Assembly (NCBI RefSeq): GCF_014126825.1 | Contig: NZ_CP059900.1 | Coordinates: 1,364,001-1,428,000 of the forward strand | Reading direction: 5' to 3' | Length of the DNA: 64,000 nucleotides | From: Tomitella gaofuii | Lineage (GTDB): Bacteria; Actinomycetota; Actinomycetes; Mycobacteriales; Mycobacteriaceae | Shown here: positions 18,077 through 35,941 of the stretch, one piece after another | How the letters are laid out: every line of letters begins with the position of its first letter | How positions within the stretch are numbered: the stretch's first letter is position 1 | Position numbers and translations under genes: made by a program | The notes under the pieces: model-generated | Told to the model about the DNA's origin: nothing | Seen by the model: only the letters and a program-made list of their open reading frames with translations | Database searches by the model: none

Positions 18077-18448
18077 TCATGTGCCGTCTGTCGGTGTCCT
18101 CGCAGGATTACGGACTTTTAATCCGCAGGTCGTCGGTTCGAGCCCGACAGGGGGCACCTGACCTCCACCTGGGCCGCCCGGGTGGGGGTCGTTTTGCGTG
18201 TGCAGCGCCCCGCCCCACATGAGCCAGTCGCGGTCAACGCCGAGCGCGAGGCTGATGCGCGCAACCTTCACGTCGAGCCCCCGGGACTGCCGGCCCTTCT
18301 CCATGCCTTGCCAGGAGCCGAAGGGGATTCCGCAGCGTTCCGCCGCTTCGCGTTGGGAGAGGCCGTACTCGGTGCGCACGAGAAGCAACCGATTGGCCAG
18401 GGTGTCGCTCGGCCTCCAGGGGGCCTGCTGTTCTGTCGGTGCGTTCAT
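18077..18448 (-). CDS. rep: Immunity repressor (XRE family) whose frame crosses the att core
   Basis: 123 aa in this lysogen. Residues 15-75 are an XRE helix-turn-helix domain (LSQREAAERCGIPFGSWQGMEKG). The tail from 98 to 111 is encoded by the att core, and the last 12 residues (VRNPARTPTDGT) by prophage 1 DNA. In the circular phage the same frame continues from the core into 62982-62900, giving 138 aa that end in EHEPAAAA. ATG 18448 lies 7 nt after the -10 box, so the mRNA is probably leaderless; an in-frame GTG at 18478 lies within the promoter. It should repress the early promoter at 18536-18564. Confidence 0.85.
   Translation of the reverse strand: MNAPTEQQAPWRPSDTLANRLLLVRTEYGLSQREAAERCGIPFGSWQGMEKGRQSRGLDVKVARISLALGVDRDWLMWGGALHTQNDPHPGGPGGGQVPPVGLEPTTCGLKVRNPARTPTDGT
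18115..18157 (+). other. attL: att core, tRNA-Lys(UUU) 3' fragment: prophage 1/prophage 2 junction
   Basis: This 43-bp sequence is identical to 62983-63025. It begins in the anticodon loop (CTTTTAA), continues through the variable region and T-arm (TCGGTTCGAGCCCGA) and ends after the acceptor strand AGGGGGCA. No D-arm or 5' acceptor strand lies upstream, so this is not a tRNA gene. It marks the left end of prophage 2 and the right end of prophage 1. On the minus strand it is read in frame by the repressor as VPPVGLEPTTCGLK. Confidence 0.92.
18160..18190. terminator. Hairpin just inside attL (phage-supplied terminator)
   Basis: A 14-bp stem with two G-U pairs (18160-18173 with 18177-18190) starts three bases after the tRNA-Lys 3' end. 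In a single lysogen this would replace the chromosomal tRNA terminator that integration displaces to attR (63034-63054). It is also inside the repressor coding sequence on the minus strand, encoding the PHPGGPGGG tail region. Confidence 0.6.
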
Positions 18449-18455
18449 GTGCGTG

Positions 18456-18485
18456 ACTGTAACGCACACTCCTGTCACTGTGCAA
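18456..18485 (-). promoter_or_regulatory. Repressor promoter, leaderless
   Basis: On the minus strand, TTGCAC (18485-18480) and TACAGT (18461-18456) are 18 bp apart. The expected start of transcription falls on the A of ATG 18448, and no Shine-Dalgarno precedes that ATG. A half-site CTGTCA (plus strand, 18472-18477), shared with the early operator, lies in the spacer and suggests autoregulation. Confidence 0.65.
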
Positions 18486-18535
18486 TGTTTTTACGCTCTT
18501 GCGTGGAGAAACATCACCGACACGCGGAAACATGA

Positions 18536-18564
18536 TTGACATCCGAATCTGTCAGTGACAGATT
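18536..18564 (+). promoter_or_regulatory. Early rightward promoter with 19-bp operator palindrome
   Basis: TTGACA (18536-18541) and CAGATT (18559-18564) are separated by 17 bp. AATCTGTCA-G-TGACAGATT (18546-18564) is a perfect 9-bp inverted repeat with a one-base centre, covering the spacer and the -10. The predicted transcript starts at the ATG of the Cro-like gene (18571), so this message is also leaderless. It is the likely main target of the repressor. Confidence 0.75.
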
Positions 18565-18570
18565 CACCGC

Positions 18571-18771
18571 ATGGCAACTCCACTCCAAGAGCTGATCGAG
18601 CTCAGGATGCCGCCGGGCCAGACCCTCCCGCTGTTCGTCAACAGTCGCCGACGCCGCGGCATCGGCCTGCGCCGCGTCGCCGAGGACATCTACGAGACCA
18701 CGAACGTCCGCGTCTCGCATGCAACCTTGCGGAACTGGTTCCCGGCCCAGCCATCCAGAAAGGCCAGCTAA
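18571..18771 (+). CDS. Cro-like small DNA-binding protein
   Basis: 66 aa. RRVAEDIYETTNVRVSHATLRNWF is a helix-turn-helix, and the protein has little else. It is the first rightward gene, divergent from the repressor, in the Cro position. ATG 18571 coincides with the expected transcription start. It would shut off repressor synthesis in lytic growth. Function is inferred from position and motif. Confidence 0.7.
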   Translation: MATPLQELIELRMPPGQTLPLFVNSRRRRGIGLRRVAEDIYETTNVRVSHATLRNWFPAQPSRKAS

Positions 18772-18777
18772 CCAAAG

Positions 18778-18808
18778 GGCCCGCCCGGGCTTCCCTCCCG
18801 GACGGGCC
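18778..18808 (+). terminator. Hairpin after the Cro-like gene
   Basis: A 12-bp stem with one mismatch joins 18778-18789 (GGCCCGCCCGGG) with 18797-18808, 7 nt after the stop of the 66-aa gene. There is no U-run. It would separate the immunity gene from the early operon and is a possible site of antitermination. Confidence 0.5.
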
Positions 18809-18833
18809 ACGACACACCAGCGAAAGGACCACT

Positions 18834-19664
18834 GTGTCCCCTCAGATACTACCCAGCACGTCCGGCGCCTCGCCGTTCGATGCGATCAAACGCACCCGCC
18901 CCGACGGCACCGAGTACTGGTCCGCCCGCGGACTGATGGAGGCGGAGAGGTACTCCCGGTGGGAAAAGTTCAAGACCGGCCTGTCACGAGCGATGGCGAC
19001 GGCCAGGAACCAGGGCCACGACGTAGAGGACCATTTTCCCCGATCGGTGCAGAAGGTCGCGATCGGCTCCGGCGCGACGCGGGACCGCGAGGATTACCAC
19101 CTCTCCCGATTCGCCGCTTACCTCGTCGCGATGAACGGCGATCCGAACATGCCGGAGGTCGCCGCGGCGCAGGCGTACTTCGCTGTCCGTACCCGGGAGG
19201 CCGAGACCACCAGGCCCGCGCTGACGGATGACGAGATCGTCGCCCAGGCACTCGCGATCACCACCCACCGGGTGCGCGAGCTCGAGTCCGTCGTCGAGGA
19301 CCTCAAGCCCGACGCCCGCGCCTGGCGGCAGCTGGCCGACGCGGACGGCAACTACGGGGTCGGCGACGCCGCGAAGATCCTGTCGCAGGACGCCGGGATC
19401 AGTGTCGGCCGCAACCGGCTGTTCACGGTGATGGAGGACGCGAAGTGGATCTACCGGCGCAAGGGGCCGCGCGGCGGGTGGTGCGCCTACCAGACGCAGG
19501 TCGAATGCGGCCGGCTCCATGAGCGCCCGGCCACGCCGTTCCTGAACCGCAAGACCGGCGAGTACGAGCTGCCGGCGCCGACGATCCGCATCACGGTCAA
19601 GGGCGTCGCGGATCTGCACGCGAAGCTCACCGACGGCCAGCTCGCGATCGGGGGAGTGGCATGA
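18834..19664 (+). CDS. Phage antirepressor
   Basis: 276 aa from GTG 18834, behind AAAGGA. The N-terminal part, reading FDAIKRTRPDGTEYWSARGLMEAERYSRWEKF, matches the BRO/DinD-type domain of phage antirepressors. The C-terminal part (about 165-276: GDAAKILSQDAGISVGRNRLFTVMEDAKWIYRR) is the KilA-C/ANT domain. Such proteins oppose the repressor or act as early regulators. The stop overlaps the next ATG (ATGA). Confidence 0.85.
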   Translation: MSPQILPSTSGASPFDAIKRTRPDGTEYWSARGLMEAERYSRWEKFKTGLSRAMATARNQGHDVEDHFPRSVQKVAIGSGATRDREDYHLSRFAAYLVAMNGDPNMPEVAAAQAYFAVRTREAETTRPALTDDEIVAQALAITTHRVRELESVVEDLKPDARAWRQLADADGNYGVGDAAKILSQDAGISVGRNRLFTVMEDAKWIYRRKGPRGGWCAYQTQVECGRLHERPATPFLNRKTGEYELPAPTIRITVKGVADLHAKLTDGQLAIGGVA

Positions 19665-20026
19665 GCGACCGAGACAACGTTCCTGCGGCGTCGGTGCGGA
19701 TTCCGCTGCACGTGCCGGACCCCTTGCAGGTGCTCGCCGAGATCGAGGCCCGCCGCCGGCACCCCGCGGCCGCCGCACAGCGCACGCCGATGGACACCGC
19801 GCAGGAGTTCCACGACGAGGTCGACGCGCAGACCGGGCGGATCCTGCCACGCCGCATCCCCGGCGCCGTGGAACCGACCGCCTGCAGCTTCGGGTTCGAG
19901 CCGGTCACCGGCTGGGACCGGTGGTCCGAACTGCCCCGCGCGCACAAGGCCGCACTGATCGGAGTCTCGACGCTCGCCGCCTGCCTCCTGGTCGCCGTCG
20001 CGCTCGTCGGTTCGTGGGGGTGGTGA
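19661..20026 (+). CDS. Early protein with C-terminal membrane helix, 121 aa
   Basis: The ATG overlaps the antirepressor TGA. The soluble N-terminal 95 residues show no recognisable domain. Residues about 98-120 (ALIGVSTLAACLLVAVALVG) form one membrane helix ending SWGW, so it is tail-anchored. It is coupled to the next gene by GTGA. Unknown function. Confidence 0.6.
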   Translation: MSDRDNVPAASVRIPLHVPDPLQVLAEIEARRRHPAAAAQRTPMDTAQEFHDEVDAQTGRILPRRIPGAVEPTACSFGFEPVTGWDRWSELPRAHKAALIGVSTLAACLLVAVALVGSWGW

Positions 20027-20436
20027 CCGTGGTAGCGACCGTGGGAACCAACCGCCCGGTGATCCCGGCGGACGGGTTGACCGTGCACCACGAGCAGGAG
20101 GAGGCCGCGCGCCGCGTCGTCGCGGGCAATTCCAGCAGCGCGGCCGAGGCGGCCGAGTTCATGGCCATGCTCGGCATCACCCCCGACAAGGCGGAGGTGC
20201 ACTCCCGCCCGACGTCACCGCTGTCGAAGAACCAGGCCGCCGCGCTGCGCGGCCGGACCAAAGCCAAGACGGTGCGGCTCAACGAACCGTGCGCCGGCGG
20301 CTGCGGCCAACTCCTCCGCCCGTACAAGATGCGCGCGGCGGAAGCGCCGGGGACGGTCGGCGCGACTGGCCGCGGCATGTGCTCGGGCTGCTACCGCAAG
20401 GCCCGGGCCGACGAGGCGCAGGAGGCGGCGCCGTGA
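20023..20436 (+). CDS. Early protein with four-cysteine zinc motif, 137 aa
   Basis: GTG 20023 overlaps the preceding stop. The C-terminal CAGGCGQLLRPYK...GMCSGCYRK gives a CxxxC...CxxC arrangement that probably binds zinc. The N-terminal part (GLTVHHEQEEAARRVVAG) is helical. No family recognised. It is one of several small zinc-ribbon proteins in this operon. Confidence 0.6.
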   Translation: MTVVATVGTNRPVIPADGLTVHHEQEEAARRVVAGNSSSAAEAAEFMAMLGITPDKAEVHSRPTSPLSKNQAAALRGRTKAKTVRLNEPCAGGCGQLLRPYKMRAAEAPGTVGATGRGMCSGCYRKARADEAQEAAP

Positions 20437-20600
20437 CCCTCTTCTGGCACGTCAGTCAGATCCCCGAAGGCGCCGTCGTCGTCGACCAGCTCTCGCGACG
20501 CTTCCACTTCCGCGGCGGACGGTTCGACGACGGCATGCACCAGCTCCACGCCGCCGACCTCGACTTCCCCCTCTTCCACGACACCGGAGACCACCCATGA
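20433..20600 (+). CDS. Small early protein, 55 aa
   Basis: GTG 20433 (GTGA overlap) gives MTLFWHVSQIPEGAVVVDQLSRRFHFRGGRF and ends FHDTGDHP. The ATG of the next gene overlaps its stop. Translational coupling on both sides supports expression. No domain or membrane segment. Unknown function. Confidence 0.5.
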   Translation: MTLFWHVSQIPEGAVVVDQLSRRFHFRGGRFDDGMHQLHAADLDFPLFHDTGDHP

Positions 20601-20743
20601 GACCGCTGCTCCCGCACCGCATCCGCCCCTGGTACCCGCCGCGCACCGACGCACATCCCCTCCGCCGGCCGGTGTCGGCGACGCCGATCTACGACCAGCT
20701 CGCCGCCGAGTACGGCTTCGACCCACTCGAGGAGACCCGATGA
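20597..20743 (+). CDS. Small early protein, 48 aa
   Basis: ATG 20597 overlaps the previous TGA, and its own TGA overlaps ATG 20740. The first half is basic and proline-rich (RPLLPHRIRPWYPPR); the end ATPIYDQLAAEYGFDPLEETR is helical. No family recognised. Confidence 0.5.
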   Translation: MRPLLPHRIRPWYPPRTDAHPLRRPVSATPIYDQLAAEYGFDPLEETR

Positions 20744-21108
20744 CCCGTGCAGATGTGTGCGCGCGGTGCGGGCACGCCCGCGTGCTCCACGAGACCGTGC
20801 CGACCGATCACCGATTCAAGGCCCCGCGGAAGAAGGATCGGGCGCCGGAGCCGCCGATCGGCCGGGACGAGCTGCGCGCGATCATCCGCGCCGAAGTGCG
20901 CGCCGAGCTCGCGCGGGCACGGCCGGAGATGGTGACGACGAACGAGTACCACGTACCGGAGCCGGTCCTGTCGCGTGATCAGGCGGTGCGCCTCGCCCAG
21001 GCTCCGCAGCCGGGCGAGTCGGCAGCCGACGCGGAGATCCGCCGCCGACTCGTGGGTTCAGCGCAGGTCGCCGAGATCATCGCCCGGGCACAGCGGGGTG
21101 ATCGGTGA
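20740..21108 (+). CDS. Early protein with CxxC pair, 122 aa
   Basis: Starts MTRADVCARCGHARVLHE, a CxxC plus His knuckle, followed by a charged coil (about 40-70, ELRAIIRAEVRAELARARPE). The stop overlaps the next ATG (TGATG). The zinc knuckle suggests a nucleic-acid or protein adaptor role, but nothing specific can be said. Confidence 0.55.
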   Translation: MTRADVCARCGHARVLHETVPTDHRFKAPRKKDRAPEPPIGRDELRAIIRAEVRAELARARPEMVTTNEYHVPEPVLSRDQAVRLAQAPQPGESAADAEIRRRLVGSAQVAEIIARAQRGDR

Positions 21109-21422
21109 TGCGCACGCTCCTCGAGTCCCTCGCGTCGACGCCCAGCCCCGCGTCCCCGCATGGCCGTCTCGGCGACCTGGACCGGGTCGGTGACGCCGCC
21201 CTCGAGGCGGCGGCGTGGATCCGGGAGCAGGACCCGCACGCCCTGCATGCGCTGCTGACGCGGATCGGTGGGGAACGCCCGGCCGCCCTCGCCGACATCG
21301 CGATGGCCCTGGCCGCCCTGGTCGACCCCGACGAGGAAGACGAGGAGCGGGCGGCGCGGGTGGAGGCGATCAGCGCGCCCCGCGTGCGTCTCGTCGGCCG
21401 CCGGTACGGGGGTGCGGCATGA
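21108..21422 (+). CDS. Small helical early protein, 104 aa
   Basis: ATG 21108 (TGATG overlap); GTG 21105 is also possible. The protein is nearly all helical (LDRVGDAALEAAAWIREQDPHALHALLTRI) with an acidic stretch DPDEEDEERAARVEA. No known domain. Coupled to the following gene by ATGA. Confidence 0.5.
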   Translation: MRTLLESLASTPSPASPHGRLGDLDRVGDAALEAAAWIREQDPHALHALLTRIGGERPAALADIAMALAALVDPDEEDEERAARVEAISAPRVRLVGRRYGGAA

Positions 21423-21706
21423 CGAGCTCCTACGCCCCGCGCGATGAGGACAGCATCGCCGACATGCTCGCTCCCCGGCCGATGCCGCTGGTGGAGGTGC
21501 ACTACGAAGTGCCGCCGACCAAGTCGGATCAGCGGCCGTACCGAACCGTGATCGGCCGGGTGGCCCTGGTCGACGCCGGACTCGTCGTGGTCGACCGTGA
21601 TGTGCCCACCCCGAAGGGGGTGCGGACGACGGAGATCCCCGCGGCCCGCGTGATCCAGATCGACCACCTGCCCGCCCCGCCCGACCAGACGACGCAGGAG
21701 GGCTGA
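21419..21706 (+). CDS. Small beta-rich early protein, 95 aa
   Basis: ATG 21419 overlaps the preceding stop. The middle VEVHYEVPPTKSDQRPYRTVIGRVALVDAGLVVVDRD reads as a small beta barrel, ending ARVIQIDHLPAPPDQ. It resembles short OB/SH3-like phage proteins, but no family is assigned. AGGAGG at its end may serve the next reading frame. Confidence 0.5.
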   Translation: MTSSYAPRDEDSIADMLAPRPMPLVEVHYEVPPTKSDQRPYRTVIGRVALVDAGLVVVDRDVPTPKGVRTTEIPAARVIQIDHLPAPPDQTTQEG

Positions 21707-22045
21707 TGGCAGCTGCCCCGCCGCACCCACCGGCGCACCACCACGTGCAGCCGGTGTGAGGCACCGATCGTGTGGGTGACCACGGCCAGTCGTGGCACCC
21801 GCCTCGCCCTCGACGCATCCCCCGATGACCACGGCGTGTTCCAGGTGGTCACCGGCGGCGCCGACGGGCTGATCGGCCGGCCCCTGGCGGGCAGCGACCT
21901 TGCCGCCGCGATCGCGGACGGCACGCCCTTGTTCATCCCGCATCGCCGCACCTGCACGGCGAACAAGTCCCACAACCCCATGCCCGACGACGTGCGCGCC
22001 GAGATCGCCCGGGGCGTTGGGCCGCGCCACCCCAGGAGAGACACC
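21706..22045 (+). pseudogene. Zinc-ribbon reading frame with displaced start
   Basis: ATG 21706 is well placed behind AGGAGG but opens a frame of only 17 codons. The frame one base away, without ATG or GTG until 21770, reads RTTTCSRCEAPIVWV through DGTPLFIPHRRTCTANKSHNP, a convincing zinc ribbon like the gene at 24830. A one-base indel in the CCCCGCCGC stretch, a CTG start at 21713, or recoding would reconcile them. The frame then runs without a stop into the ParB-like gene. Confidence 0.45.
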
Positions 22046-23617
22046 ATGACCACCCCCGAGACATCCCAGACAGGGCCATCCGTCCCCGCGGACGAGAAGT
22101 GGCTGAGCGACGTCACCGCGGTCCCCATCGAGAAGATCGTGCCGAACCCGCGGAATCCACGGCGCGAGGTCGCGGTCGACGCGGACCTGGTCCTGTCGAT
22201 CAAGGCGGTGGGCGTGCTGCAGCCGCTGATCGTCGTCCCGGACGGCCTGGCCGATCCTGTCGACGGCTGGGAGCGGTACATGGTGGTGGCCGGGCACCGC
22301 CGTCTGCAAGCCGCGATCAAGGCCGGCCTGGCCGAGGTGCCGTGCATGACCCTTGCTGGCCGCGATGACGCGCCGGACCAGATCGTGGCGATGCTCGCTG
22401 AGAACAAGGACCGCGCCGACCTGACCGTGTCGGAGGAGGCTGGGGCGTATCAGGCATTGCTCGACCTCGGGTTGACGCCGGCGAAGGTGGCGAAGAAGAC
22501 GGGGCGGTCGACCGCGCATGTCGGGGACCACTTGGTGTTGGCCCGTCAGTCGGAGAGAGTCCGCGGCTACGTCGACAATGGTCAGGCGAAGCTCTCCGAC
22601 GTCGCCGCGCTCGACGAGTTCTCGGATGACCACGAGGAGTACGAGAAGCTGGCCGGTCTGATCGGCTCGCCGTCGATGTTCCAGCTGCACCTCGAGTACG
22701 CCCGGCGGCGCCGCGACCGCGCCGCCGCCGCCAAGGCAGCCCGCGACGAGCTCGCCGGGCGCGGCATCAACGCGGTGACCCTCGACGAGCTCGGCGAAGA
22801 GATAGCCCAGGAGCAGATCGACGCGGGCGTGGACCCGGACGAGGTCGATGGGGCCGCCGACATCGACGACGTGTGGGAGGAACTCGACGCCGAACCCGAC
22901 GACCCCAAGTCCGCGGAAGTGCGCGCCCTCGTCGACGTGCACGAGTCGGAGCCGGTGGTGTGGCTGCGCCGCCGGCCCACCCCCGAACCCGGCAGCGAGC
23001 AGGAAGCCGCGCAGCGGGAGGAGTCGGCGGCGCAGGCCCGTCGCCGCGAAGAAGACCAGGCCATCAGACAGCAGACGGAGGAAGTCGCCGCCGCCGCGCG
23101 TGTCCGGTGGCGGCACCTGGCCGAGCAGGCGCGCGGCGTGTCGACCGCGGCCCGCGCGGAGGAGCTGTTGCGGCCGGTGGTGGTGAACCTCGCCGCCGAA
23201 CGGCTGCGCCAGTCGCCGCTCAAGCACGAGTACGTGCGGATCATCCTGGGCCTGCCGGAGGTGGAGGTCACCTGGGTGAACACGCGCGACGCGACGCCGG
23301 TCGAGGACATCGAGAAGGCGATCAGCAGGTTGAGCCGGCACCAGCTGGCCGCGGTCGCCTTCTTGCTCGACGAGGGGCCGCAGATGGAGATGAGCCTGCT
23401 CAATCCGCACAACTGGCGCGGCGCGACGGGCGCATCGTTCGGCCCCGCGGTCGAGGACTGGAAAGAACGGCTCTCCCTCGAGTGGGGCTACGAGCTCGCC
23501 GACATCGAGCGGGCCCTGGTGATCGAGGGCGAGACGGCCCGCGCCGCCGCGGCCCTCGAGGCGGAGAACGCCGAAGACGCCCCCGCCGACGGAGACGTGG
23601 GCGATGGGGCCGCGTAG
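22046..23617 (+). CDS. ParB/Spo0J-like nuclease-domain protein
   Basis: 523 aa from ATG 22046, behind AGGAGAG (22032-22038). Residues about 15-120 are a ParB N-terminal domain (VPIEKIVPNPRNPRREV, GVLQPLIVV, VVAGHRRLQAAIKAGLAEVPCM, AMLAENKDRADLTVSEEAGAYQALLDLG). A helix-turn-helix follows (TPAKVAKKTGRSTAHVGDHL). The C-terminal half is charged and specific to this lineage. Phage ParB-like proteins act in replication, partition or methyltransferase-linked roles. The frame is open upstream, so a longer product is possible. Confidence 0.82.
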   Translation: MTTPETSQTGPSVPADEKWLSDVTAVPIEKIVPNPRNPRREVAVDADLVLSIKAVGVLQPLIVVPDGLADPVDGWERYMVVAGHRRLQAAIKAGLAEVPCMTLAGRDDAPDQIVAMLAENKDRADLTVSEEAGAYQALLDLGLTPAKVAKKTGRSTAHVGDHLVLARQSERVRGYVDNGQAKLSDVAALDEFSDDHEEYEKLAGLIGSPSMFQLHLEYARRRRDRAAAAKAARDELAGRGINAVTLDELGEEIAQEQIDAGVDPDEVDGAADIDDVWEELDAEPDDPKSAEVRALVDVHESEPVVWLRRRPTPEPGSEQEAAQREESAAQARRREEDQAIRQQTEEVAAAARVRWRHLAEQARGVSTAARAEELLRPVVVNLAAERLRQSPLKHEYVRIILGLPEVEVTWVNTRDATPVEDIEKAISRLSRHQLAAVAFLLDEGPQMEMSLLNPHNWRGATGASFGPAVEDWKERLSLEWGYELADIERALVIEGETARAAAALEAENAEDAPADGDVGDGAA

Positions 23618-23784
23618 TGGATACCGCCGCCGCGGCCGACGACTGGTGGCATTCGCTGCCGCCGGATCGGCGGGTGCAGATCTGGCGGTGGGTCGACCGC
23701 CCCGCCGCCCCCGCGGAGACGCCCGGCCAAATGTCCATCCCCATCCGCTCATCGAGGAGGCGCCATGACCGCACCCACCGCTGA
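23617..23784 (+). CDS. Small early protein, 55 aa
   Basis: GTG 23617 is inside TAGTG at the end of the ParB-like gene. The sequence WWHSLPPDRRVQIWRWVDRP is tryptophan-rich and may be a protein-binding peptide. The C-terminus is arginine-rich and overlaps the next gene by 20 nt. No family recognised; the end could be an overlap artefact. Confidence 0.45.
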   Translation: MDTAAAADDWWHSLPPDRRVQIWRWVDRPAAPAETPGQMSIPIRSSRRRHDRTHR

Positions 23785-24514
23785 TGCCCCGCCCGTCGCG
23801 CGCGGCGTCGACGTCATCGTCGGCACCAAGGACCTGCGGGCCGCCCTGGCGTCGGTGCTCGCCCATGCGGGCGGGGACCCGGAGCTGCCGGAGCGGCACC
23901 GAGTCGTCTGCGAAGTCGGGCCGGAAGAGCTGATCTGGTGGGCCACCGACGGCATGTCCGCGGGCTTGGCTTGGCACGAGGTGCACTCGCACCAGGCGGA
24001 GGGGCTGGGCCGGTTCGCGATCCTGCCGGCGGATGCGAAGAAGCTGCTGTCGATCTTCAAGGCGGGCAAGGAAGCCGACGACGATCCGCAGTTCATCGTG
24101 CAGATTCAGGTAGTCCAGAAAGGTGACGAGCAGTTCGTCACCGTGACGGACCAGTCCGGGCTGCTGCCGGGACGGTCGTACCGGGTGCCGCAGGTGTACG
24201 GGACGGACTCGCCGGGGCCGGCCGTCGACCAGCTGCTCGCCCGGCTGCATCACAGCTCGGCCGCATGGTCGGAGGAGGCCGTCTTCAACGGCGAAGTGCT
24301 GGCCCGGTTCAAGGCGGCCACCGGCGCGTACCGGGCGCCGGTGCAAGTCGGCGCGGTCGCCCGGTCGAAGTCGTTGCTCGTCCGGTGCGGCGCGCACTTC
24401 ATCGGCGCGCTGATGTCGATCCACACGGCCGAGGAGGAAGAGAAAGAACGCGCCGCCTGGCGCGAGGCGTGGGCCGAGCGTCTGCCCCGCCCGGCGACGG
24501 GAGACCTGTCGTGA
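23765..24514 (+). CDS. DnaN-like sliding-clamp protein
   Basis: 249 aa from ATG 23765, behind GAGGAGG. The pattern TKDLRAALASVLAHAG, then RVVCEVGPEELIWWATDGMSAGLAW, then GRFAILPADAKKLLSIFK, then VTVTDQSGLLPGRSYRVP follows the repeated fold of the beta clamp. It is shorter than bacterial DnaN (about 370 aa), as in several actinophages. It would tether a polymerase or nuclease to DNA. The call rests on pattern, not on a single motif. Confidence 0.6.
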   Translation: MTAPTADAPPVARGVDVIVGTKDLRAALASVLAHAGGDPELPERHRVVCEVGPEELIWWATDGMSAGLAWHEVHSHQAEGLGRFAILPADAKKLLSIFKAGKEADDDPQFIVQIQVVQKGDEQFVTVTDQSGLLPGRSYRVPQVYGTDSPGPAVDQLLARLHHSSAAWSEEAVFNGEVLARFKAATGAYRAPVQVGAVARSKSLLVRCGAHFIGALMSIHTAEEEEKERAAWREAWAERLPRPATGDLS

Positions 24515-24708
24515 CCGCCCCCGCCGCTGCTGCCGCTGGCCTGGTCGTGGCCGGCGTTGTCGCCGCGGCCACCACCGGCGCGGTGGCGGCGTTCCTGGCC
24601 GCTGACTTCGTGTACGGCGCCGCCGCGACCGCGTTCGGCCTGCGCCGCCTGCCCACCCGACCCGCACGGCCCACGCCGCGCCCCTACCCCCCGAGGAGTT
24701 TCCGATGA
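24511..24708 (+). CDS. Small membrane protein, 65 aa
   Basis: GTG 24511 (GTGA overlap). Alanine- and valine-rich residues 8-42 span the membrane once or twice, followed by a proline/arginine tail (RRLPTRPARPTPRPYPP). Unknown role. It belongs to the chain of overlapped early genes. Confidence 0.5.
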   Translation: MTAPAAAAAGLVVAGVVAAATTGAVAAFLAADFVYGAAATAFGLRRLPTRPARPTPRPYPPRSFR

Positions 24709-24833
24709 CCCCCCTGCACGTCACCCCCGCCCCCGCCTACGGCGACGGCCGCGACTGGACCACCTGGCACGCCATCACCCAATGGCTCGCTTTCATCACG
24801 TGGACGCGCACCGGATGGGGGTCCTGGTCGTGA
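24705..24833 (+). CDS. Tryptophan-rich micro-protein, 42 aa
   Basis: ATG 24705 overlaps the previous TGA, and its stop overlaps the GTG at 24830. WTTWHAITQWLAFITWTRTGWGSWS has six tryptophans and could sit in the membrane interface. No family recognised. The double overlap supports translation. Confidence 0.45.
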   Translation: MTPLHVTPAPAYGDGRDWTTWHAITQWLAFITWTRTGWGSWS

Positions 24834-25120
24834 CCGCCCGTATCGCACCGCAGGCACCTGTGTGGGTGTCCGACCGGGCCGAACCCTGCCGGTCCTGCGG
24901 CACCGAGGTCGTCTGGTGCCGCACCGAGAAGGGCGCGCTGATGCCGGTGGACGCGAAGCCGTCGAAGGCGGGGAACATCGCCGTCTCCCGGGCCGGGTCC
25001 GCGCTGCATGCCGGGGTCGTGTCGCCGCGGCAGGCGGACGGCATGCGCGCCGCCGGCAGGCCGGTGTTCCTCGCCCACTTCGCTTCCTGCCCGCATGCGG
25101 ACCAGTGGAGGAAGAAGTGA
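24830..25120 (+). CDS. Zinc-ribbon protein, 96 aa
   Basis: GTG 24830 (GTGA overlap). CRSCGTEVVWCRTEKGALMPVDAKP followed by FASCPHADQWRKK forms a CxxC...C...CxH ribbon of a kind common in actinophage early regions. The displaced frame at 21706-22045 encodes a relative. Possible adaptor for host proteins or nucleic acid; function unknown. Confidence 0.65.
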   Translation: MTARIAPQAPVWVSDRAEPCRSCGTEVVWCRTEKGALMPVDAKPSKAGNIAVSRAGSALHAGVVSPRQADGMRAAGRPVFLAHFASCPHADQWRKK

Positions 25121-25272
25121 GCCGCCCCGCGGCCGTGGGTGACCGGGTCACCGTGCGCCCCGGCGTTTACGCCCACATCACGGCGATCCGCCGCAGCCCG
25201 TTCCCGTACGCCGAGCTCACCACCGAGCACGGCGACCGCATCACCATCCCCCTGTCGAAACTGGAGGCCTGA
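25117..25272 (+). CDS. Small beta protein, 51 aa
   Basis: GTG 25117 (GTGA overlap). The sequence VGDRVTVRPGVYAHITAIRR then AELTTEHGDRITIPLSKLEA is a short SH3-like or KOW-like barrel. Possibly nucleic-acid binding. No assigned family. A clear stop two bases before the next ATG closes this overlap chain. Confidence 0.5.
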   Translation: MSRPAAVGDRVTVRPGVYAHITAIRRSPFPYAELTTEHGDRITIPLSKLEA

Positions 25273-25273
25273 C

Positions 25274-25885
25274 ATGGACACCGACTTGATCCACAGCGCA
25301 GCGGAAGAGCTCGATCGCAACGACTACCCGCAAGCGGCACACGAGCTACGGGAGATCGCCACTGCGAAAGCAGTAGAAGCCGCCGCCGCCTTCGCGTCTG
25401 CCGTGCGCGCGCGCAGGGATGCGGAGACGCTACGTGAGGCGGATCGAATCCTGCGAGGAAGTCCGACTGTCGGCGCCCCGGACGCGAGCAGGGTGCTCCT
25501 CGCGGAGTCGGACCGGCTGCTACGGGCGTCGGAGCCTGAATCGGAGTGGTCTCCGGCCGTGGGCCAGTGGGCGCAGACCGTCACCGGGGCGGAGGACTTG
25601 GCCATCCCGCGTTGGGTGACCGTCGTCCTCGTGTTGAGTGAAGTGGACGGCGACGGCGAGGTGATCGTCGGGTGGGAGGGCCGGCCCGGCAACGGGGGCC
25701 GCACGTTCGGTTCCGTCCACGTGTCCGCGCTGGGCCCGGTGAACCCGCGCGTGTGGGGCCGCGACGACGTAGTTCCCGAGCACGTGGTGGTCCGCGACAG
25801 AGGAGGGGCCCTCATGGCCGGAAGCACGGCGCGCGTGATGCCCGGGTATGCCCCCTTCACCGAGGTGTTGGAGGCAGGCCGATGA
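25274..25885 (+). CDS. Early protein of unknown function, 203 aa
   Basis: ATG 25274, behind CTGGAGG. The N-terminal helical half (DLIHSAAEELDRNDYPQAAHELREIA) is followed by a beta part (RWVTVVLVLSEVDGDGEVIVGWEGRPG) and VPEHVVVRDRGGAL. No catalytic motif is seen. Its stop overlaps the LysB-like gene (ATGA). Confidence 0.55.
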   Translation: MDTDLIHSAAEELDRNDYPQAAHELREIATAKAVEAAAAFASAVRARRDAETLREADRILRGSPTVGAPDASRVLLAESDRLLRASEPESEWSPAVGQWAQTVTGAEDLAIPRWVTVVLVLSEVDGDGEVIVGWEGRPGNGGRTFGSVHVSALGPVNPRVWGRDDVVPEHVVVRDRGGALMAGSTARVMPGYAPFTEVLEAGR

Positions 25886-26613
25886 TCGACATCGTCACCG
25901 TGCAAGGCGTCGGCGAGAAGGTGGGGCAGCCGCAGTCGCGGATGGCCGAGTACGTCCTCGAGCACCTCAACCACAGCCAGTTTCGAGAGGTGCCGGTCAC
26001 CGACTACGTCACGGTCGGCCCGGTCGGGGTGAACCCGGGGCCCGCGCTGCAGACCGCGGTCGACCGGGTGAAGGCGTCGACGCTCGACGTCATCGACCGC
26101 ACCCCCAACCCCGCCGTCCTGGTCGGCTACTCCGGGGGCGCGATGGTGGCGCACCGGGTGGCCGACGAGGTCGGCCGCGGCCTGCATCCGCACCTCGATG
26201 TGCGCGGCGTCGTACTCATTGCGGATCCGCTCATGCCCCGCGGCGTCACCCCTGCGGGCTACGGGGTGGCCGGCGACGGGCCGATGAGTCTGACGATGCC
26301 GACGAAGTGGCTGTGGGATACGCAGGATCCGATCTGCTGCGCCGGGGACCCGTCCCCGTTGCACACCCTGTCGGATCAGATCATGGCGATGTGCCTGGGC
26401 GCGCCGGACGTGTGGGCGCAGGACCTCATCGACAGGCTCCGGTCGGGCCGGTGGCAGCCCACCGCGTGGAACTGGCTCGACCTGTTCGGCACGTTCCGCC
26501 GCTACTCGCGGGCGATCGACCAGATGGGCTTCTACCTGACCGGCGGCCACTTCGAGGCGTACCGGTATCGCGGCCACGAGGCCGCGGCGTGGATCCGGCA
26601 GGTGACGGCATGA
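25882..26613 (+). CDS. lysB: LysB-like mycolyl esterase (alpha/beta hydrolase)
   Basis: 243 aa. GYSGG at 82-86 gives the nucleophile Ser84. A candidate Asp lies in WDTQDPICCAGDPSP, and His in GGHFEAYRY; this order and the CC-GDP segment are typical of LysB and cutinase-like esterases of actinophages. LysB frees the mycolic-acid outer layer at lysis. It is unusual that the gene lies in the early operon, about 25 kb from the endolysin and holin. Confidence 0.75.
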   Translation: MIDIVTVQGVGEKVGQPQSRMAEYVLEHLNHSQFREVPVTDYVTVGPVGVNPGPALQTAVDRVKASTLDVIDRTPNPAVLVGYSGGAMVAHRVADEVGRGLHPHLDVRGVVLIADPLMPRGVTPAGYGVAGDGPMSLTMPTKWLWDTQDPICCAGDPSPLHTLSDQIMAMCLGAPDVWAQDLIDRLRSGRWQPTAWNWLDLFGTFRRYSRAIDQMGFYLTGGHFEAYRYRGHEAAAWIRQVTA

Positions 26614-26738
26614 GGCGCATCGCAGCCACCGCAACCACGGTCGCACTCGCCGGTGTCGGCCTGGCCGCCGGCGCCGTGCTCGTCGCCGCGTCGGTCGTCG
26701 AGGCCGTCGCGACCCGCCTCGAGGAGGCGGCGTGGTGA
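26610..26738 (+). CDS. Membrane micro-protein, 42 aa
   Basis: ATG 26610 overlaps the LysB-like stop, and its own stop overlaps GTG 26735. It has one hydrophobic helix (TVALAGVGLAAGAVLVAASVV) and a short amphipathic end. It could equally be an exported peptide. Because it directly follows the esterase, a helper role in export or lysis is possible but speculative. Confidence 0.45.
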   Translation: MRRIAATATTVALAGVGLAAGAVLVAASVVEAVATRLEEAAW

Positions 26739-26881
26739 CCACCTACGAGTGCGGGACCTGTTTCCTGTCGGACGCCGACTTTCCCGCGGGCCGCGATCCG
26801 GCGTCGTTCTTCACGCGGCGCGGCGGCGAGCAGTACTGCCTCGTCTGCGCCGAGCTTGTCGACGTGGGAGTCGGCCCGTGA
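26735..26881 (+). CDS. Zinc-ribbon micro-protein, 48 aa
   Basis: GTG 26735 (GTGA overlap). CGTCFLSDADF...EQYCLVCAEL gives two CxxC knuckles, a minimal zinc ribbon. The stop overlaps the next GTG. No specific family; it is one of at least five such proteins in this operon. Confidence 0.55.
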   Translation: MTTYECGTCFLSDADFPAGRDPASFFTRRGGEQYCLVCAELVDVGVGP

Positions 26882-27276
26882 GCCCGGTGACGCCTGCGGA
26901 CGTCATCGACCGGCATTCCCGCGTGGTCCTGCCGTTCCGCACGGCGGAGGTGGTGTGCGCGTGCGGGTGGCGGGCCGCGCTGGGGGCGAACGTGCACGTG
27001 GACGGGAGCCGGCTGTTCGCGGTGCACGTGGCCGGCGAGCTCGAGCGTGCGGGATTGCGGTTGACGGTGGCGCGCGAGTTCGCCGCGGTGACGGCACGGA
27101 TGGTGCGTCTCGAATTGGTCGCGGGGGAGCTGATGAAGCTGGCGAAGGCCTGGCAGGCGTCGGTCGTCGACTACGAGTTGCGCGCCGAGGACTACGACGC
27201 CTGGGCGGCCGCCAACGACCGGGTCGAGGCGGGCTACGAGCTGGAACGCGAGATCAAGAGGTGGACCGATGAATGA
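26878..27276 (+). CDS. Early protein, 132 aa, CxC N-terminus and helical body
   Basis: GTG 26878 overlaps the previous stop. VVCACGWRAALGANVHVDGSRLF is a short Cys-containing beta unit, and residues 55-132 are long helices (REFAAVTARMVRLELVAGELMKLAKAW). No family recognised. The gene ends in an 8-nt overlap with the next start. Confidence 0.5.
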   Translation: MSPVTPADVIDRHSRVVLPFRTAEVVCACGWRAALGANVHVDGSRLFAVHVAGELERAGLRLTVAREFAAVTARMVRLELVAGELMKLAKAWQASVVDYELRAEDYDAWAAANDRVEAGYELEREIKRWTDE

Positions 27277-27430
27277 CGAACGCTACGACGCGCTTGACCG
27301 GGCACGAGGGTTCGGCAGGTGCACCGATGGTCACCAGCTGAAGCCGATGGACGACGCCCCTGGCAGCGGGTTCCTGGTGTGCGAGCGGTGCGGCTCCGAG
27401 TTCTGGGCAGAGGAGGACGAGGATGCCTGA
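27269..27430 (+). CDS. Zinc-ribbon micro-protein, 53 aa
   Basis: ATG 27269 shares ATGAATGA with the preceding stop. CTDGHQLKPMDDAPGSGFLVCERCGSEFW has the cysteine spacing of a zinc ribbon. Its acidic end EEDEDA overlaps the start of the next gene. Unknown role. Confidence 0.5.
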   Translation: MNDERYDALDRARGFGRCTDGHQLKPMDDAPGSGFLVCERCGSEFWAEEDEDA

Positions 27431-28124
27431 CGATGTGATTGCCCGCGCGGAGCTGGCGATGGACAGCATCTCCGAGGGGCCCTGGCATGTCGATCACCCG
27501 ACGGGATTCCCGAGCGTCTGGCAGGGCGAGCCACACCGCGATGCGGCATTGGTATGCCCGTCGTCGATGCCCGGCGACGAGGGCGAGGCGAACGCCGCCT
27601 TCATCGCTGCAGCACCCGCCCTCGTGCGCGACCTGATGGCTGCGCTACAGGCTGCCCGCGCGACGAACACTCGCCTCAATAAGCGCTGCCAGCTCGCCGA
27701 CCGTGCCCTCGCGGAGAAGGTCTCGGAGCACGCCGGACGGTCATTCGGGCGGGGTTTGGCGAACTGGGCGGCGACCAAGTACCGGGAGGAACGCGACGAG
27801 GCGCGGGCCGAGGTGGACGATGCCCTGGACCAGGCCGCGCTTCGGGAGGCGGCGGCGGACCTGCTCCGCGCTCAACGTGACGAGGCGCTGGAAGAGGCGG
27901 AGAGGCTGAGGGAGGGCGATTGGGCGCTGCTCTCGCGAAACCTCTACAACGCCGAGGCTGTGCGTGACGAGGCGCGGTCCGCCATCGCACGGGTGCGGGA
28001 GCTGGCGGACGATGCGCCCTGGGTGAAGGTCCACGCGGGCGGCGGGAACATGGTCGACCAAAAGCGACTCGTCCCTGCGGGTGACCTCCTCCGCGCCCTG
28101 GACGGTGATGTCGGTGCTGCCTGA
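27423..28124 (+). CDS. Ead/Ea22-like phage protein
   Basis: 233 aa. ISEGPWHVDHPTGFPSVW near the start and EANAAFIAAAPALVRDLMAALQAAR are the conserved blocks of the Ead/Ea22 family of phage early proteins, whose biochemical role is unknown. The middle is coiled coil (about 95-190). It ends with a segment similar to its phage relatives (VPAGDLLRALDG). Confidence 0.65.
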   Translation: MPDDVIARAELAMDSISEGPWHVDHPTGFPSVWQGEPHRDAALVCPSSMPGDEGEANAAFIAAAPALVRDLMAALQAARATNTRLNKRCQLADRALAEKVSEHAGRSFGRGLANWAATKYREERDEARAEVDDALDQAALREAAADLLRAQRDEALEEAERLREGDWALLSRNLYNAEAVRDEARSAIARVRELADDAPWVKVHAGGGNMVDQKRLVPAGDLLRALDGDVGAA

Positions 28125-28374
28125 CGACCCGGATTACGAGGAGTGGCGGCGGCTGTTCCGTCTGCCGGACATCGGCGCGGAGATCCGGCGCGAGGAGGCC
28201 TTGCGTGCCCGGCGCGAGTTTCAGCACGACCTCGCGGAGACAGTATCCGCGTTCTGGGATGCGCTGCGGCCCGTAGTGGCGAGCACCCTCGTGGCGGTCG
28301 AGTACGCGGCGCGGGCGGTCGGTTTCGAGCCGCCGCCGTCCGGTACGCGGCGTGACTTCGGGGGTGCGTCGTGA
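28108..28374 (+). CDS. Small early protein, 88 aa
   Basis: ATG 28108 lies within the end of the previous gene; an in-frame start at 28081 is the alternative. PDDPDYEEWRRLFRLPDIGAEIRREEALRARREF is charged and helical, and the centre (LRPVVASTLVAVEYAARAVGF) is weakly hydrophobic. No domain recognised. GTGA overlap with the next gene. Confidence 0.5.
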   Translation: MSVLPDDPDYEEWRRLFRLPDIGAEIRREEALRARREFQHDLAETVSAFWDALRPVVASTLVAVEYAARAVGFEPPPSGTRRDFGGAS

Positions 28375-28568
28375 GCCCGGAGCATTGGCCGGGTGATGCC
28401 GGCGACCTTCTCGCTGCCGACCCGTACGGCGTCGTCGCTGACCGGCTGTGGGCCGCGATCGTCCGCACGCTCGGTCTCCTCGAGGATGCGCTGGGCCTGC
28501 CGATGGGGACCGTGCTCGGCGAGGTGGACGCGTCCGGGTGGGTGCGGGAGGTGCTCGATGGGCTCTGA
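28371..28568 (+). CDS. Small early protein, 65 aa
   Basis: GTG 28371 (GTGA overlap). Amphipathic helices (ADRLWAAIVRTLGLLEDALGLPMG). No cysteine pair or membrane helix. The end overlaps the RusA-like gene by 11 nt. Unknown. Confidence 0.5.
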   Translation: MSPEHWPGDAGDLLAADPYGVVADRLWAAIVRTLGLLEDALGLPMGTVLGEVDASGWVREVLDGL

Positions 28569-28947
28569 ACCACGCACCTGGGTGCTCGTCGCCGAGCTGC
28601 GCAAGCCGCCGATGACCGCGAACGAGCAGAGGCGCGCCACCTGGCGGACGATGCGCGCGGCGAAGTACGAGGCCGGCCAGCTTGTCTGGGCGCTCGCCAA
28701 GCGGGCCAGGGTGCCGCGGCTGCGCCGCGCGCGGGTCGACGTCGTCTGGCACGCCCCCACCCGCACCCGCCGCGACGCCGACGCGCTCGGCCCGTTCCTC
28801 AAGGCCACGCTCGACGGCCTCGTGCAGGCCGGCGTGCTCGGCGATGACGACTACCGGCACGTGCCCCGCGTCGGGTTGGGCGTCGAGATCGACCGGGCCC
28901 GGCCGCGCATCGAGATCACCATCACCGAACTAGGAGCCCCGGAGTGA
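28558..28947 (+). CDS. rusA: RusA-family Holliday-junction resolvase
   Basis: 129 aa from ATG 28558. The family core is present: HAPTRTRRDADALGPFLKATLDGL, then QAGVLGDDDYRHV, including the acidic residues of the RusA active site (RRDAD and GDDD). Such enzymes cut branched DNA before packaging or during recombination. Its neighbours DnaQ-like exonuclease, clamp and ParB make a replication module. Confidence 0.85.
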   Translation: MGSEPRTWVLVAELRKPPMTANEQRRATWRTMRAAKYEAGQLVWALAKRARVPRLRRARVDVVWHAPTRTRRDADALGPFLKATLDGLVQAGVLGDDDYRHVPRVGLGVEIDRARPRIEITITELGAPE

Positions 28948-29600
28948 CGGAAGAGGAGATCGACGCCCTCGTCGACGCCCAGCTCGCTCAAGAGCCGTCC
29001 GGCTACGACCACAATCTGGGCCAGCCGGAGTGCCCGCATTGCGGCGACGACTTCCACGGGCTCGCGGTGACGGAGCGGATGCGGCAGATGCGGAGCTTCG
29101 GCGAGGTCGACCCGGGCTACCGGTATGACGAGGACACTTCGCCGGTGGTGTGCCCGGGATCGCTGTTCATCGGACCACCCCCGCCGCCAACGCTCGACCC
29201 TCTCGAGTTGCTATTCGGCCGACTCCTGGCTCACGCCGACAGTGTGCCGGCCGAACGCGCCGCAGCAGTCCGTCTTCCGTCACGCGGCATCGAGCGAGTC
29301 TCCGAGGCGCTGCGCGCCTACACCCGATGGTCGCAGCGCGTGCTCCTCGGTGTGGGCGAAGGCACCGAGTCACGGATCCACGCCCCGTGGCTCGCGGGCA
29401 GCCGTGAGGTCATCGAACACGATGACGTGCCCGACGCCCCACTCATCCCCGAGCGCGCCCCGCAGCGCGCCCTCCCCTCCGCCCTCGCCCACGATGGCAC
29501 CCCGGATCCGCCTGGCCGGCCGCCGGTGCCGCGCCCGTCCACCCGCCCACCGATGTGGGCCCACGACCCCACACGCAGCCGAAGGAGCCGCAATGTCTGA
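28944..29600 (+). CDS. Zinc-knuckle protein with proline-rich tail, 218 aa
   Basis: GTG 28944 (GTGA overlap). CPHCGDDFHGLAVTERMRQMR near residue 30 is a zinc knuckle, and residues 160-218 are proline/arginine-rich and probably disordered. A similar N-terminal segment is known from actinophage early genes of unknown function. The end overlaps the exonuclease start by 8 nt. Confidence 0.5.
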   Translation: MTEEEIDALVDAQLAQEPSGYDHNLGQPECPHCGDDFHGLAVTERMRQMRSFGEVDPGYRYDEDTSPVVCPGSLFIGPPPPPTLDPLELLFGRLLAHADSVPAERAAAVRLPSRGIERVSEALRAYTRWSQRVLLGVGEGTESRIHAPWLAGSREVIEHDDVPDAPLIPERAPQRALPSALAHDGTPDPPGRPPVPRPSTRPPMWAHDPTRSRRSRNV

Positions 29601-30222
29601 CCGACCCGTGATCGTTGTCGATGTCGAGACGACGGGGCTCGACCCCGCCAAGCACACCGTGGTGGAGCTCGCCGCCGTCGACCTGGGCACCGGTGACCAC
29701 AGGGTGATCGTCCCCGGACTGCGCAAGGAGGACCTGGCCGCGGCGTCGCCGCGCGCGTGGACGGTGAACAAGTATTTCGAGCGGCGGGTGTATGAGCAGG
29801 CGATGGGCAAGTCGGCGCTCAATGACGCGCTGTGCGAGCTGTTCGGCTGGCTAGACGGGGCGACGTTGGCCGGCTGCAATCCGGCGTTCGACGCGGCGTT
29901 CCTGGCCGCGCTGTTTGCGGACCGGTGCGACGAAGGCGTACCGACGTGGCATCACCGGCTCGCGGATCTGTCCACGCTCACCGCGGCCGCGCTGCAGAAG
30001 GACCCGCTGAAGCTGCCGGGGCTCGACGTCTGCTGCGCGTGGTGGGGCGTGACGAACCAGGCGCCGCACACGGCGCTCGGCGACGCCCAGGCGACGGCCG
30101 AGTGCCTGCGCATGCTGCGCGCGCACTGCGATGACCGCGGGTCGGTCAGTCCCGACTACGAGGGCCACCAGCCGGCGCCGGAGCGGTACTCGGCGTCGGC
30201 GGCCGCGGAGGCGCGGCTGTGA
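29593..30222 (+). CDS. DnaQ-like 3'-5' exonuclease
   Basis: 209 aa from ATG 29593, behind AAGGAG. Exo I DVETTGL with E (residues 10-16), Exo II GCNPAFDAAFL and Exo III HTALGDAQAT are all present, so this is a DEDDh nuclease of the polymerase III epsilon type. It may proofread or process DNA in phage replication. A longer in-frame extension exists upstream but lacks a ribosome site. Confidence 0.88.
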   Translation: MSDRPVIVVDVETTGLDPAKHTVVELAAVDLGTGDHRVIVPGLRKEDLAAASPRAWTVNKYFERRVYEQAMGKSALNDALCELFGWLDGATLAGCNPAFDAAFLAALFADRCDEGVPTWHHRLADLSTLTAAALQKDPLKLPGLDVCCAWWGVTNQAPHTALGDAQATAECLRMLRAHCDDRGSVSPDYEGHQPAPERYSASAAAEARL

Positions 30223-30305
30223 TGCCCACCCCGGCCGGGCCCCGCGCCCCACCACTACGCACCCGCCGTGTCCTGCGCATTGTCCTGTTTCGTCCCGCCA
30301 GTTGA
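30222..30305 (+). CDS. Possible 27-aa leader peptide
   Basis: ATG 30222 overlaps the exonuclease stop (TGATG) and runs to TGA at 30303-30305. The peptide is basic and proline/arginine-rich (RAPPLRTRRVLRIVLFRPAS). The GAGGAGA ribosome site of the next gene directly follows. It may be a coupling leader or mere chance. Confidence 0.25.
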   Translation: MPTPAGPRAPPLRTRRVLRIVLFRPAS

Positions 30306-30317
30306 GGAGACCCGTAC

Positions 30318-32051: not shown

Positions 32052-32736
32052 CCCGACCGTCACCGACACCGATGGGTTCTTCCTCGACCGCCCGGGCCAG
32101 CAGGAGCTCCGCGGGCTGCTCGAGCAGATCCCGGGCCTCGTCGAGGACCTGGCCGTGACCGTGACCCGGCAAGACCGGGTGCGCTCCGGTGGCCGCGGCC
32201 GCTCGGGCCGCCTCGACGCCAGCCCGATGCCCGTGAACCTGCACGCCGTGGAAATGCGCGACGAGCTGCACGCCGTGCTGGCCGGGTGGGTGCGCCGCAC
32301 CTGCGAGGCACGGCAGCTCACCTACGACGGGACCGGGGATCTGCTGGGTGTGGCACGGTGGCTGCGCCGGTGGCTGATCGCCGTGGCGCTGACCGACGGC
32401 GCCGACGACGTCGTCGCGCAGGTGGCCGCCGCGATGCGCCGGTGCCGCCGCGCCGTGGACCTGCCGCCCGAAGACGGCGTGCAGCTCGACGACCGGCAGG
32501 TGCAGCGGGCGCGGATGCTCACGTTCAGCAGGCAGGGCATCCGGGACATGTGCCGGCAGATCGGCGGGGACGCGCGCGGTGTGACGAAGCGGCGCCTCGA
32601 AACGCTCATCGACGGTGGCCATGTGGTGCCGGTGCGGGTGATCCGGGTGGGCCGGGATCAGACGGACATCTACCGGCTCGGCGATGTGCTCGACGCGCAC
32701 GCTGCCGTGCCGCAACGCACCCGCGCGTCCGGGTAG
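32044..32736 (+). CDS. Early protein, 230 aa, helix-turn-helix-like C-terminus
   Basis: ATG 32044 shares ATGCCTGA with the preceding stop. The body is helical (ELRGLLEQIPGLVEDLAVTVTRQDRVRSGG), and the C-terminal FSRQGIRDMCRQIGGDARGVTKRRLETLIDGGHVVPVRVIRVGRDQTDIYRL-like segment reads as a winged helix-turn-helix. It may bind DNA at the end of the early operon. No family assigned. A hairpin follows. Confidence 0.55.
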   Translation: MPDPTVTDTDGFFLDRPGQQELRGLLEQIPGLVEDLAVTVTRQDRVRSGGRGRSGRLDASPMPVNLHAVEMRDELHAVLAGWVRRTCEARQLTYDGTGDLLGVARWLRRWLIAVALTDGADDVVAQVAAAMRRCRRAVDLPPEDGVQLDDRQVQRARMLTFSRQGIRDMCRQIGGDARGVTKRRLETLIDGGHVVPVRVIRVGRDQTDIYRLGDVLDAHAAVPQRTRASG

Positions 32737-32774
32737 TGCCCCTTACGTGCGGGCTCGTGCTACGCTCAGCGCGT

Positions 32775-32802
32775 AGCGCGAGGTGAATGTTCACCCCGCG
32801 CT
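32775..32802 (+). terminator. Terminator of the early operon
   Basis: A 13-bp stem with one mismatch (AGCGCGAGGTGAA at 32775-32787 with 32790-32802), followed by TTCGTGTTCTT. It lies 39 nt after the stop of the last early gene. The 395-bp stretch 32737-33131 has no convincing gene. Confidence 0.65.
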
Positions 32803-32912
32803 TTCGTGTTCTTCCCGCGTCACGCCGGTGCTCAGTCGGAGTGGATGACGGTCAAGCTCGGCCCATGACCCCGTTGATGAATCGGGTGAGGTCGTGCTGC
32901 GCGGGAGCAAGC

Positions 32913-32991
32913 TCCCTCGGCTGCACTCCTTTCTGGGTAGTCATTCGAGCTGCACCCCGCATGGCAAATAAGCTGGGGCGCAGCCGAGGGA
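32913..32991. repeat. 12-bp inverted repeat in the gene-free stretch before the late genes
   Basis: TCCCTCGGCTGC (32913-32924) and GCAGCCGAGGGA (32980-32991) are perfect inverted repeats around 55 nt. That interval holds CTGCACCCCGC and AGCTGGGGCG, which can pair internally. This looks like a structured RNA or a replication/packaging site. On the minus strand a 30- to 36-codon frame overlaps it and is too weak to call. Confidence 0.45.
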
Positions 32992-33131
32992 ACCTACGCC
33001 TCGCCCCGGCGACCACCGTGCCCCCGCTCTGAACCCATGGCGGGGGCACGCGCACGTCGGCCTTCCCCGTTCGCGGCCGGGTGCGCGCTGGTGCGGCGAG
33101 GTTCGGCCCGTGGCCTGAGGAGGCGGTCGTC

Positions 33132-35925: not shown

Positions 35926-35941
35926 CGAGAGGAGATGGGCT

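Follow-up and report, generated by a model that had tools for sequence, protein, structure and literature searches.

Two prophages in one tRNA-Lys gene of Tomitella gaofuii: probable integration-dependent immunity and a repressor end encoded by the neighbouring prophage

Results

The stretch of T. gaofuii DNA that was analysed (the window, 64,000 nucleotides) belongs to a genome of 4.35 Mb and contains two identical copies of a 43-bp core (CTTTTAATCCG...GGGGCAC), at 18115-18157 and 62983-63025. The two copies bound a prophage, here called prophage 2, with the repressor gene at its left end and the integrase gene near its right end. The features used below are as follows.

1 to 18125 (continued outside the window): prophage 1, described below
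18077..18448, minus strand: repressor, integrated form, 123 aa, with a helix-turn-helix (HTH) at about residues 17-77, a Gly/Pro linker and then antisense-tRNA-Lys codons
18109..18125, plus strand: attR core of prophage 1, 17 bp, TACGGACTTTTAATCCG; the other copy lies outside the window (L003, 14692-14708)
18115..18157, plus strand: attL core of prophage 2, the 3' part of tRNA-Lys-TTT; one of the identical 43-bp pair
18115..63025, plus strand: prophage 2, 44,911 bp, core-bounded, with terminase, portal, head protease, major head protein and tape measure
18159..18191, plus strand: terminator-like hairpin just 3' of the tRNA end, within the repressor linker codons (z -4.6)
18545..18565, no strand: candidate operator in the divergent control region, a perfect 10+1+10 palindrome, GAATCTGTCA-G-TGACAGATTC
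18555..19664, plus strand: divergent antirepressor-like gene with a KilA-C ANT domain (Pfam, PHROG); start uncertain
61840..62730, minus strand: tyrosine integrase, 296 aa, C-terminus PFDRAA (PF00589, 2.9e-23; PHROG)
62727..62903, minus strand: 58-aa open reading frame (ORF) between repressor tail and integrase, with an ATGA overlap with each neighbour
62900..62982, minus strand: 3' remnant of the phage-form repressor, DPTFDAQVIRFVSRRASPQEHEPAAAA, a candidate degron; the first base of its codon 1 lies in the core
62983..63025, plus strand: attR core of prophage 2; the other of the 43-bp pair

Five of the ten prophage 2 proteins scanned matched terminase, portal, head protease, major head protein and tape measure families. 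The PHROG entry that best matched the tape-measure protein (43455-47354) carries the label endolysin, and tape-measure families scored only a little lower. The ORF 55165-56952 contains tandem repeats at 55580-56219, their periods ranging from 15 to 63 bp. Near the attR end, at 58966-60011, a small ORF that weakly resembles holins (E 0.0012) comes after a gene for an IrrE-like M78 peptidase.

The attachment site is a tRNA gene (tRNA-Lys) and the integrase is of the tyrosine type, as in integration-dependent immunity. ARAGORN called no tRNA-Lys within the window. The tRNA-Lys-TTT pattern was found at three places genome-wide, two of them the att cores and the third a copy carried by prophage 1, and only this third place was called as a tRNA gene by ARAGORN. 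The empty site, with an intact tRNA-Lys, is present in a same-genus genome (G003). The exact 43-bp core and a degenerate pattern for the tail (QEHEPAAAA followed by a TGA stop) were both without a match in the viral contigs scanned, and hence no free-phage copy of the prophage 2 attP was found among them.

The repressor matched PHROG 2328, transcriptional repressor, at 2.9e-20, and the Pfam family HTH_31 at E=2e-5, which is below the Pfam cut-off. As in integration-dependent immunity, the attP core lies inside its reading frame. The integrated gene, read on the minus strand from 18448 to 18077, encodes 123 aa with the C-terminus VRNPARTPTDGT. The frame crosses the cores at attL and attR in the same phase, and joining the two prophage ends in silico produced an attP at which the repressor runs on to 138 aa and ends in EHEPAAAA. 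The prophage form is thus shorter than the phage form, its stop codon coming from beyond attL. A first-pass annotation of the window had reported this in-phase crossing, both forms and an integrase ending in RAA, and each of these was reproduced here.

At the right end, ATGA overlaps on the same strand join the repressor tail to the 58-aa ORF and the 58-aa ORF to the integrase gene, so that a complete repressor gene is linked to the integrase gene only in the phage form. For the 58-aa ORF, neither Pfam nor PHROG gave a match with an E of 0.1 or lower, and tblastn returned only weak matches (E 0.09, 4 records). Gene product gp48 of TillyBobJoe, which occupies the same gene position, weakly resembles it (45% over 42 aa, E 0.09). 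The EHEPAAAA end of the phage-form repressor and the PFDRAA end of the integrase both appear ssrA-like. The host tmRNA tag is ANSKQSADSFALAA; because this tag ends in ALAA, an -AA end would be of the kind expected for host proteases that recognise the tag. The first-pass annotation had taken the alanine-rich C-terminus for a plausible ClpXP degron.

Between the repressor and the antirepressor-like gene, the palindrome at 18545-18565 is a candidate for the repressor operator. A 19-nt pattern derived from it had its sole match in the 64 kb there when up to 3 mismatches were allowed (0.00 expected), and its 13-nt centre, with 1 mismatch, also matched only there (0.08 expected). The half-site CTGTCACTG is present at 18472-18480. 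No sigma-70-like promoter was detected around the repressor. Two terminator-like hairpins were found in the 851 bases scanned, with 0.5 expected. The hairpin at 18159-18191 could block tRNA transcription from entering the repressor gene; a strong hairpin follows the tRNA end directly in all three Tomitella phages (window, L031 and L116), with z values of -4.6, -4.2 and -6.9. As a general trait, a hairpin in the repressor linker was rejected: of 15 loci tried, 13 had a core, and z was -2.4 or lower in only 6 of these 13, namely the three Tomitella phages and three of the ten others.

The DNA to the left of the prophage 2 attL core is not plain host DNA. It is the attR of another prophage, prophage 1, which extends over positions 1-18125 of the window and 14692-20000 of L003 and sits between the split parts of the tRNA-Lys gene. 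The 5' part of this gene, about 42 kb away, ends in TACGGACTTTTAATCCG, and the same 17 bp occur again at 18109-18125. Prophage 1 has portal, head and tail genes inside the window, has its own integrase, and splits the anticodon arm of the tRNA. It also carries its own intact tRNA-Lys-TTT (L003, 14837-14910), called by ARAGORN. At neither prophage 1 junction did ARAGORN call a tRNA-Lys, and the 17-bp core does not rebuild the tRNA. The prophage 1 integrase is 58% identical to that of Gordonia phage Banquo (best among 15 of 1326 matching records), a phage that also encodes a tRNA-Lys(ttt).

Since the left neighbour is the attR of prophage 1, the ten C-terminal residues of the 123-aa form, NPARTPTDGT, are encoded by prophage 1. 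In a plain lysogen the repressor is predicted to have 117 aa and the C-terminus VRSSTN. The 123-aa form given by the first-pass annotation is real at this locus, but its ending is an effect of the tandem prophage.

The window integrase is 100% identical to an integrase of T. cavernea JCM 18542. The T. cavernea prophage and prophage 2 align at 83-97% identity in stretches that cover 76% of prophage 2, with 96.6% identity over 20.8 kb. No alignment was obtained between the repressor region (window 18158-18778) and the T. cavernea contig (G002:C25, L031), whose repressor differs from that of the window (37% identity) and is read in another frame. The stretch from core to tail differs in length by 2 bp, and both repressors reach the identical PQEHEPAAAA end and stop. 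Among the systems compared, T. cavernea is the most telling case for the frame of the putative degron being kept.

Att cores beside related integrases were then compared with random points. There were 15 integrase loci, a set that excludes nine distant loci (L018-L026). A core-like match of at least 27/43 was present in nine; of these, L083 and L086 are close duplicates of L082 and were omitted, and the window and Tomitella G001 were added, giving nine cores. L017 (19/43) and L084 (23/43) had no usable core in 1.2 kb of upstream sequence, and L078, L079, L081 and L085, which start no more than about 100 bases from the integrase match, lack the upstream region. A tail was counted when at least one of the three frames had the right end and 15 aa or more to the stop. 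A frame ending in -AA was found at 7/9 cores and one ending in [AVL]A at 8/9, compared with 538/13,426 (4.0%) and 864/13,426 (6.4%) at random points in the same sequences. The miss, L016, has a weak core-like match (27/43) and no -AA or -VA frame. The integrase itself ended in -AA or -VA at 12 of the 15 related loci, while control frames ended in -AA in 12/623 and in [AVL]A in 21/623.

In all five paired systems the repressor frame at attL was the -AA/-VA tail frame at attR. The pairs are the window and four relatives, which are all the systems with both att sites readable, and three frames are in use: f0 in the window, f1 in Gordonia sp. OPL2, and f2 in T. cavernea, Mycobacterium sp. MYCO198283 and Tomitella G001. 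In G001 the attL/attR pairing was deduced across two contigs. Chance agreement would be 1/3 per pair and about 0.004 for five pairs, of which the window and T. cavernea share the tail by descent. G007 and G008 stand outside this count, being present as the phage form only. By these counts, which come from a small comparison set, the in-phase tail, as a sequence feature, exceeds chance.

The ends of other relatives were more varied. Searching by repressor gave 21 viral-contig loci, of which 8 have an integrase downstream and the other 13 are outside the count. The phage form ends in -AA in 6/8 (two of them, L090 and L093, alike) and in -IAS in 2/8 (L089 and L100). Of the named phages, Clown and NM241 have repressors ending in -AA, and Santhid and Butters in -VA. 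In phiT45-1 the repressor ends in -RIT and the integrase in -TVT, and the remnant in prophiGD36-2, which has the closest repressor, ends in -ERIAS. Because of such relatives, we regard the -AA end as usual and not universal for repressors of the integration-dependent kind, and its presence in the window, judged from the reading frame, is clear. Members without the tag presumably rely on other degradation systems (PMC8092301; this and the other papers are cited from excerpts of their text).

Discussion

We consider it very likely that prophage 2 uses integration-dependent immunity. The att cores and reading frames, the tails, the overlaps between genes and the frame coupling in relatives can be read directly in the DNA; proteolysis, a stable tail-less repressor, its repressing action and the operator are what we infer. 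The gene order in the phage genome would be repressor, 58-aa ORF and integrase, with attP inside the repressor gene toward its 3' end. By analogy with mycobacteriophage BPs, the 138-aa repressor (...PQEHEPAAAA) and the integrase (...DRAA), with their ssrA-like ends, would both be expected to be short-lived. After recombination at tRNA-Lys the codons of the tail would lie at the opposite end of the prophage. The integrated repressor would take its end from beyond attL: in a plain lysogen it would have 117 aa and end in VRSSTN, and with the tandem prophage it has 123 aa and ends in NPARTPTDGT. A repressor without the tail would be stable and would confer immunity, so integration would both fix the prophage and stabilise its repressor.

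The arrangement might instead be an accident, in which the tRNA antisense strand happens to be open, attP lies at the repressor 3' end by chance and the alanine-rich end is a coincidence of high GC. Prophage 2 does have a GC content of about 70%, and the antisense strand of an intact tRNA-Lys (in L031) is open for 12 to 20 codons from the core start in all three frames. Against these points, such ends arise by chance at 4-6% per core and were observed at 7 or 8 of 9, the frames agree in 5/5 pairs with three frames in use, and the T. cavernea tail is still in frame despite the frame change. On the core controls and the frame coupling we reject a chance origin of the tail, and we consider this reading largely refuted and its probability close to nil. 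A tail that inactivates the phage-form repressor by a route other than proteolysis, for example by disturbing oligomerisation, would make the -AA end incidental, and it would suit tails that vary outside their last residues and relatives that end in IAS or IT. What recurs, however, is the extreme C-terminus (-AA or -VA), and the integrases largely share it (12/15); in BPs the two repressor forms bind DNA alike and the long one is degraded (PMC4557955). We therefore hold a non-proteolytic tail to be very unlikely.

Decay of prophage 2, with repressor and tail as relics of a lost switch, was also weighed. The tandem insertion splits the tRNA gene and alters the ending of the repressor, and about one quarter of prophage 2 is without alignment to the T. 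cavernea relative. The integrase frame, the ATGA overlaps and the identical 43-bp cores are nevertheless all intact, family matches were obtained for most of the structural proteins examined (ten proteins were scanned), and 20.8 kb are 96.6% identical to the T. cavernea prophage. Decay is thus improbable, and integration-dependent immunity with a proteolytic tag is the reading that we adopt.

Prophage 1 looks different in kind. In tRNA-dependent lysogeny the core is 8 to 17 bp long, the tRNA is not rebuilt and the phage carries a tRNA of the same isotype (PMC10865867). Prophage 1 is alike in its 17-bp core, in a tRNA that is not rebuilt and in its own tRNA-Lys-TTT, and so looks like this arrangement in Tomitella; it is unlike in its host and in being nested with an integration-dependent prophage. 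With some reserve, as an idea more doubtful than not by a wide measure, we propose that a single tRNA gene holds two nested strategies of lysogeny, that prophage 1 engages in cross-talk by setting the C-terminus of the prophage 2 repressor, and that repressor body and degron are separate modules joined at attP. If so, three forms of the repressor (138 aa in the phage, 123 aa in the tandem and 117 aa without prophage 1) could differ in stability or activity, and short length changes would restore the frame after a repressor swap. The sequence evidence for a kept degron frame is that different repressors, in different frames, reach the same PQEHEPAAAA end through one att core. The tandem pair is also a testable case of one prophage altering the repressor of another.

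Comparison with known systems

The window system belongs to a known design, of which there are cases in print and named relatives with an intervening ORF, and it adds Tomitella as a new case. The first-pass annotation had likened it to BPs, and named the mycobacteriophages Brujita and Charlie as reportedly of the same design. That likeness stood; the distinctions claimed alongside it did not, since the proteins have phage relatives and published examples exist both for tRNA-Lys sites and for an intervening gene. The proteins, described as different, have relatives: over residues 1-87 the repressor is 59.8% identical to those of the Mycobacterium abscessus prophages prophiGD36-2 and prophiGD05-2, and over 70-72 residues it is 64-66% identical to those of Gordonia phages Santhid, Jojo24, Reyja and Tarzan and of phiT45-1. 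The integrase is 66.5% identical to that of Rem711 and 59-61% to those of Butters, Phrann and like phages. As for the site, the Gordonia cluster CW phages are described as having an integration-dependent system at tRNA-Lys, and for the added gene, GMA5 is described as having a further ORF that separates integrase and repressor (PMC5559632); such a gene is also annotated in prophiGD36-2, TillyBobJoe and Dmitri.

In BPs an ssrA-like tag leads to degradation of the longer repressor, and the shorter one is stable and active (PMC4557955; review PMC9262239), and integration-dependent immunity is described for mycobacteriophage clusters G, I, N and P (PMC4557955). Prophage 2 resembles this group in an attP within the repressor gene, a longer phage form with -AA, a similar integrase end and a tRNA attB, and its integrase is 59% identical to that of the Charlievirus Butters. 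It differs in the 58-aa ORF, the Tomitella host and an integrated end that comes from another prophage. The design is also in print for Bifidobacterium prophages (PMC6109161). In M. abscessus prophages the integrase is beside the repressor or 3 to 5 genes off (PMC8092301). Of these prophages, prophiGD36-2 and prophiGD05-2 share the repressor similarity given above; the prophiGD36-2 record annotates attP within the repressor and has a gene between the repressor remnant and the integrase. Unlike prophage 2, prophiGD36-2 has no match to the tRNA-Lys core (best 24/43) and its remnant ends in ERIAS, not AA. TillyBobJoe and Dmitri have the repressor-ORF-integrase order of prophage 2, but their repressors are absent from the 33 matches of the window repressor; that of Dmitri is 67% like the T. 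cavernea prophage repressor. The CW phages Jeanie and GMA5, compared through their description in PMC5559632, share the tRNA-Lys site and, in GMA5, the extra ORF.

Judged by titles and the beginnings of abstracts, the literature matches included none on Tomitella phages. On the same basis, among the matches listed, there was none on the pairing of a tRNA-dependent with an integration-dependent prophage or on the frame of a degron being preserved when the repressor is exchanged, both of which are weak negatives. The nearest parallel to the tandem is M. abscessus T36, in which two prophages occupy one tRNA site and the repressor of the second is found where it adjoins the first (PMC9934374). As described there, both partners in T36 are integration-dependent, whereas prophage 1 looks tRNA-dependent and splits the anticodon arm. 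What the window adds to the known design is thus a second prophage in the same tRNA gene that writes the new ending of the repressor.
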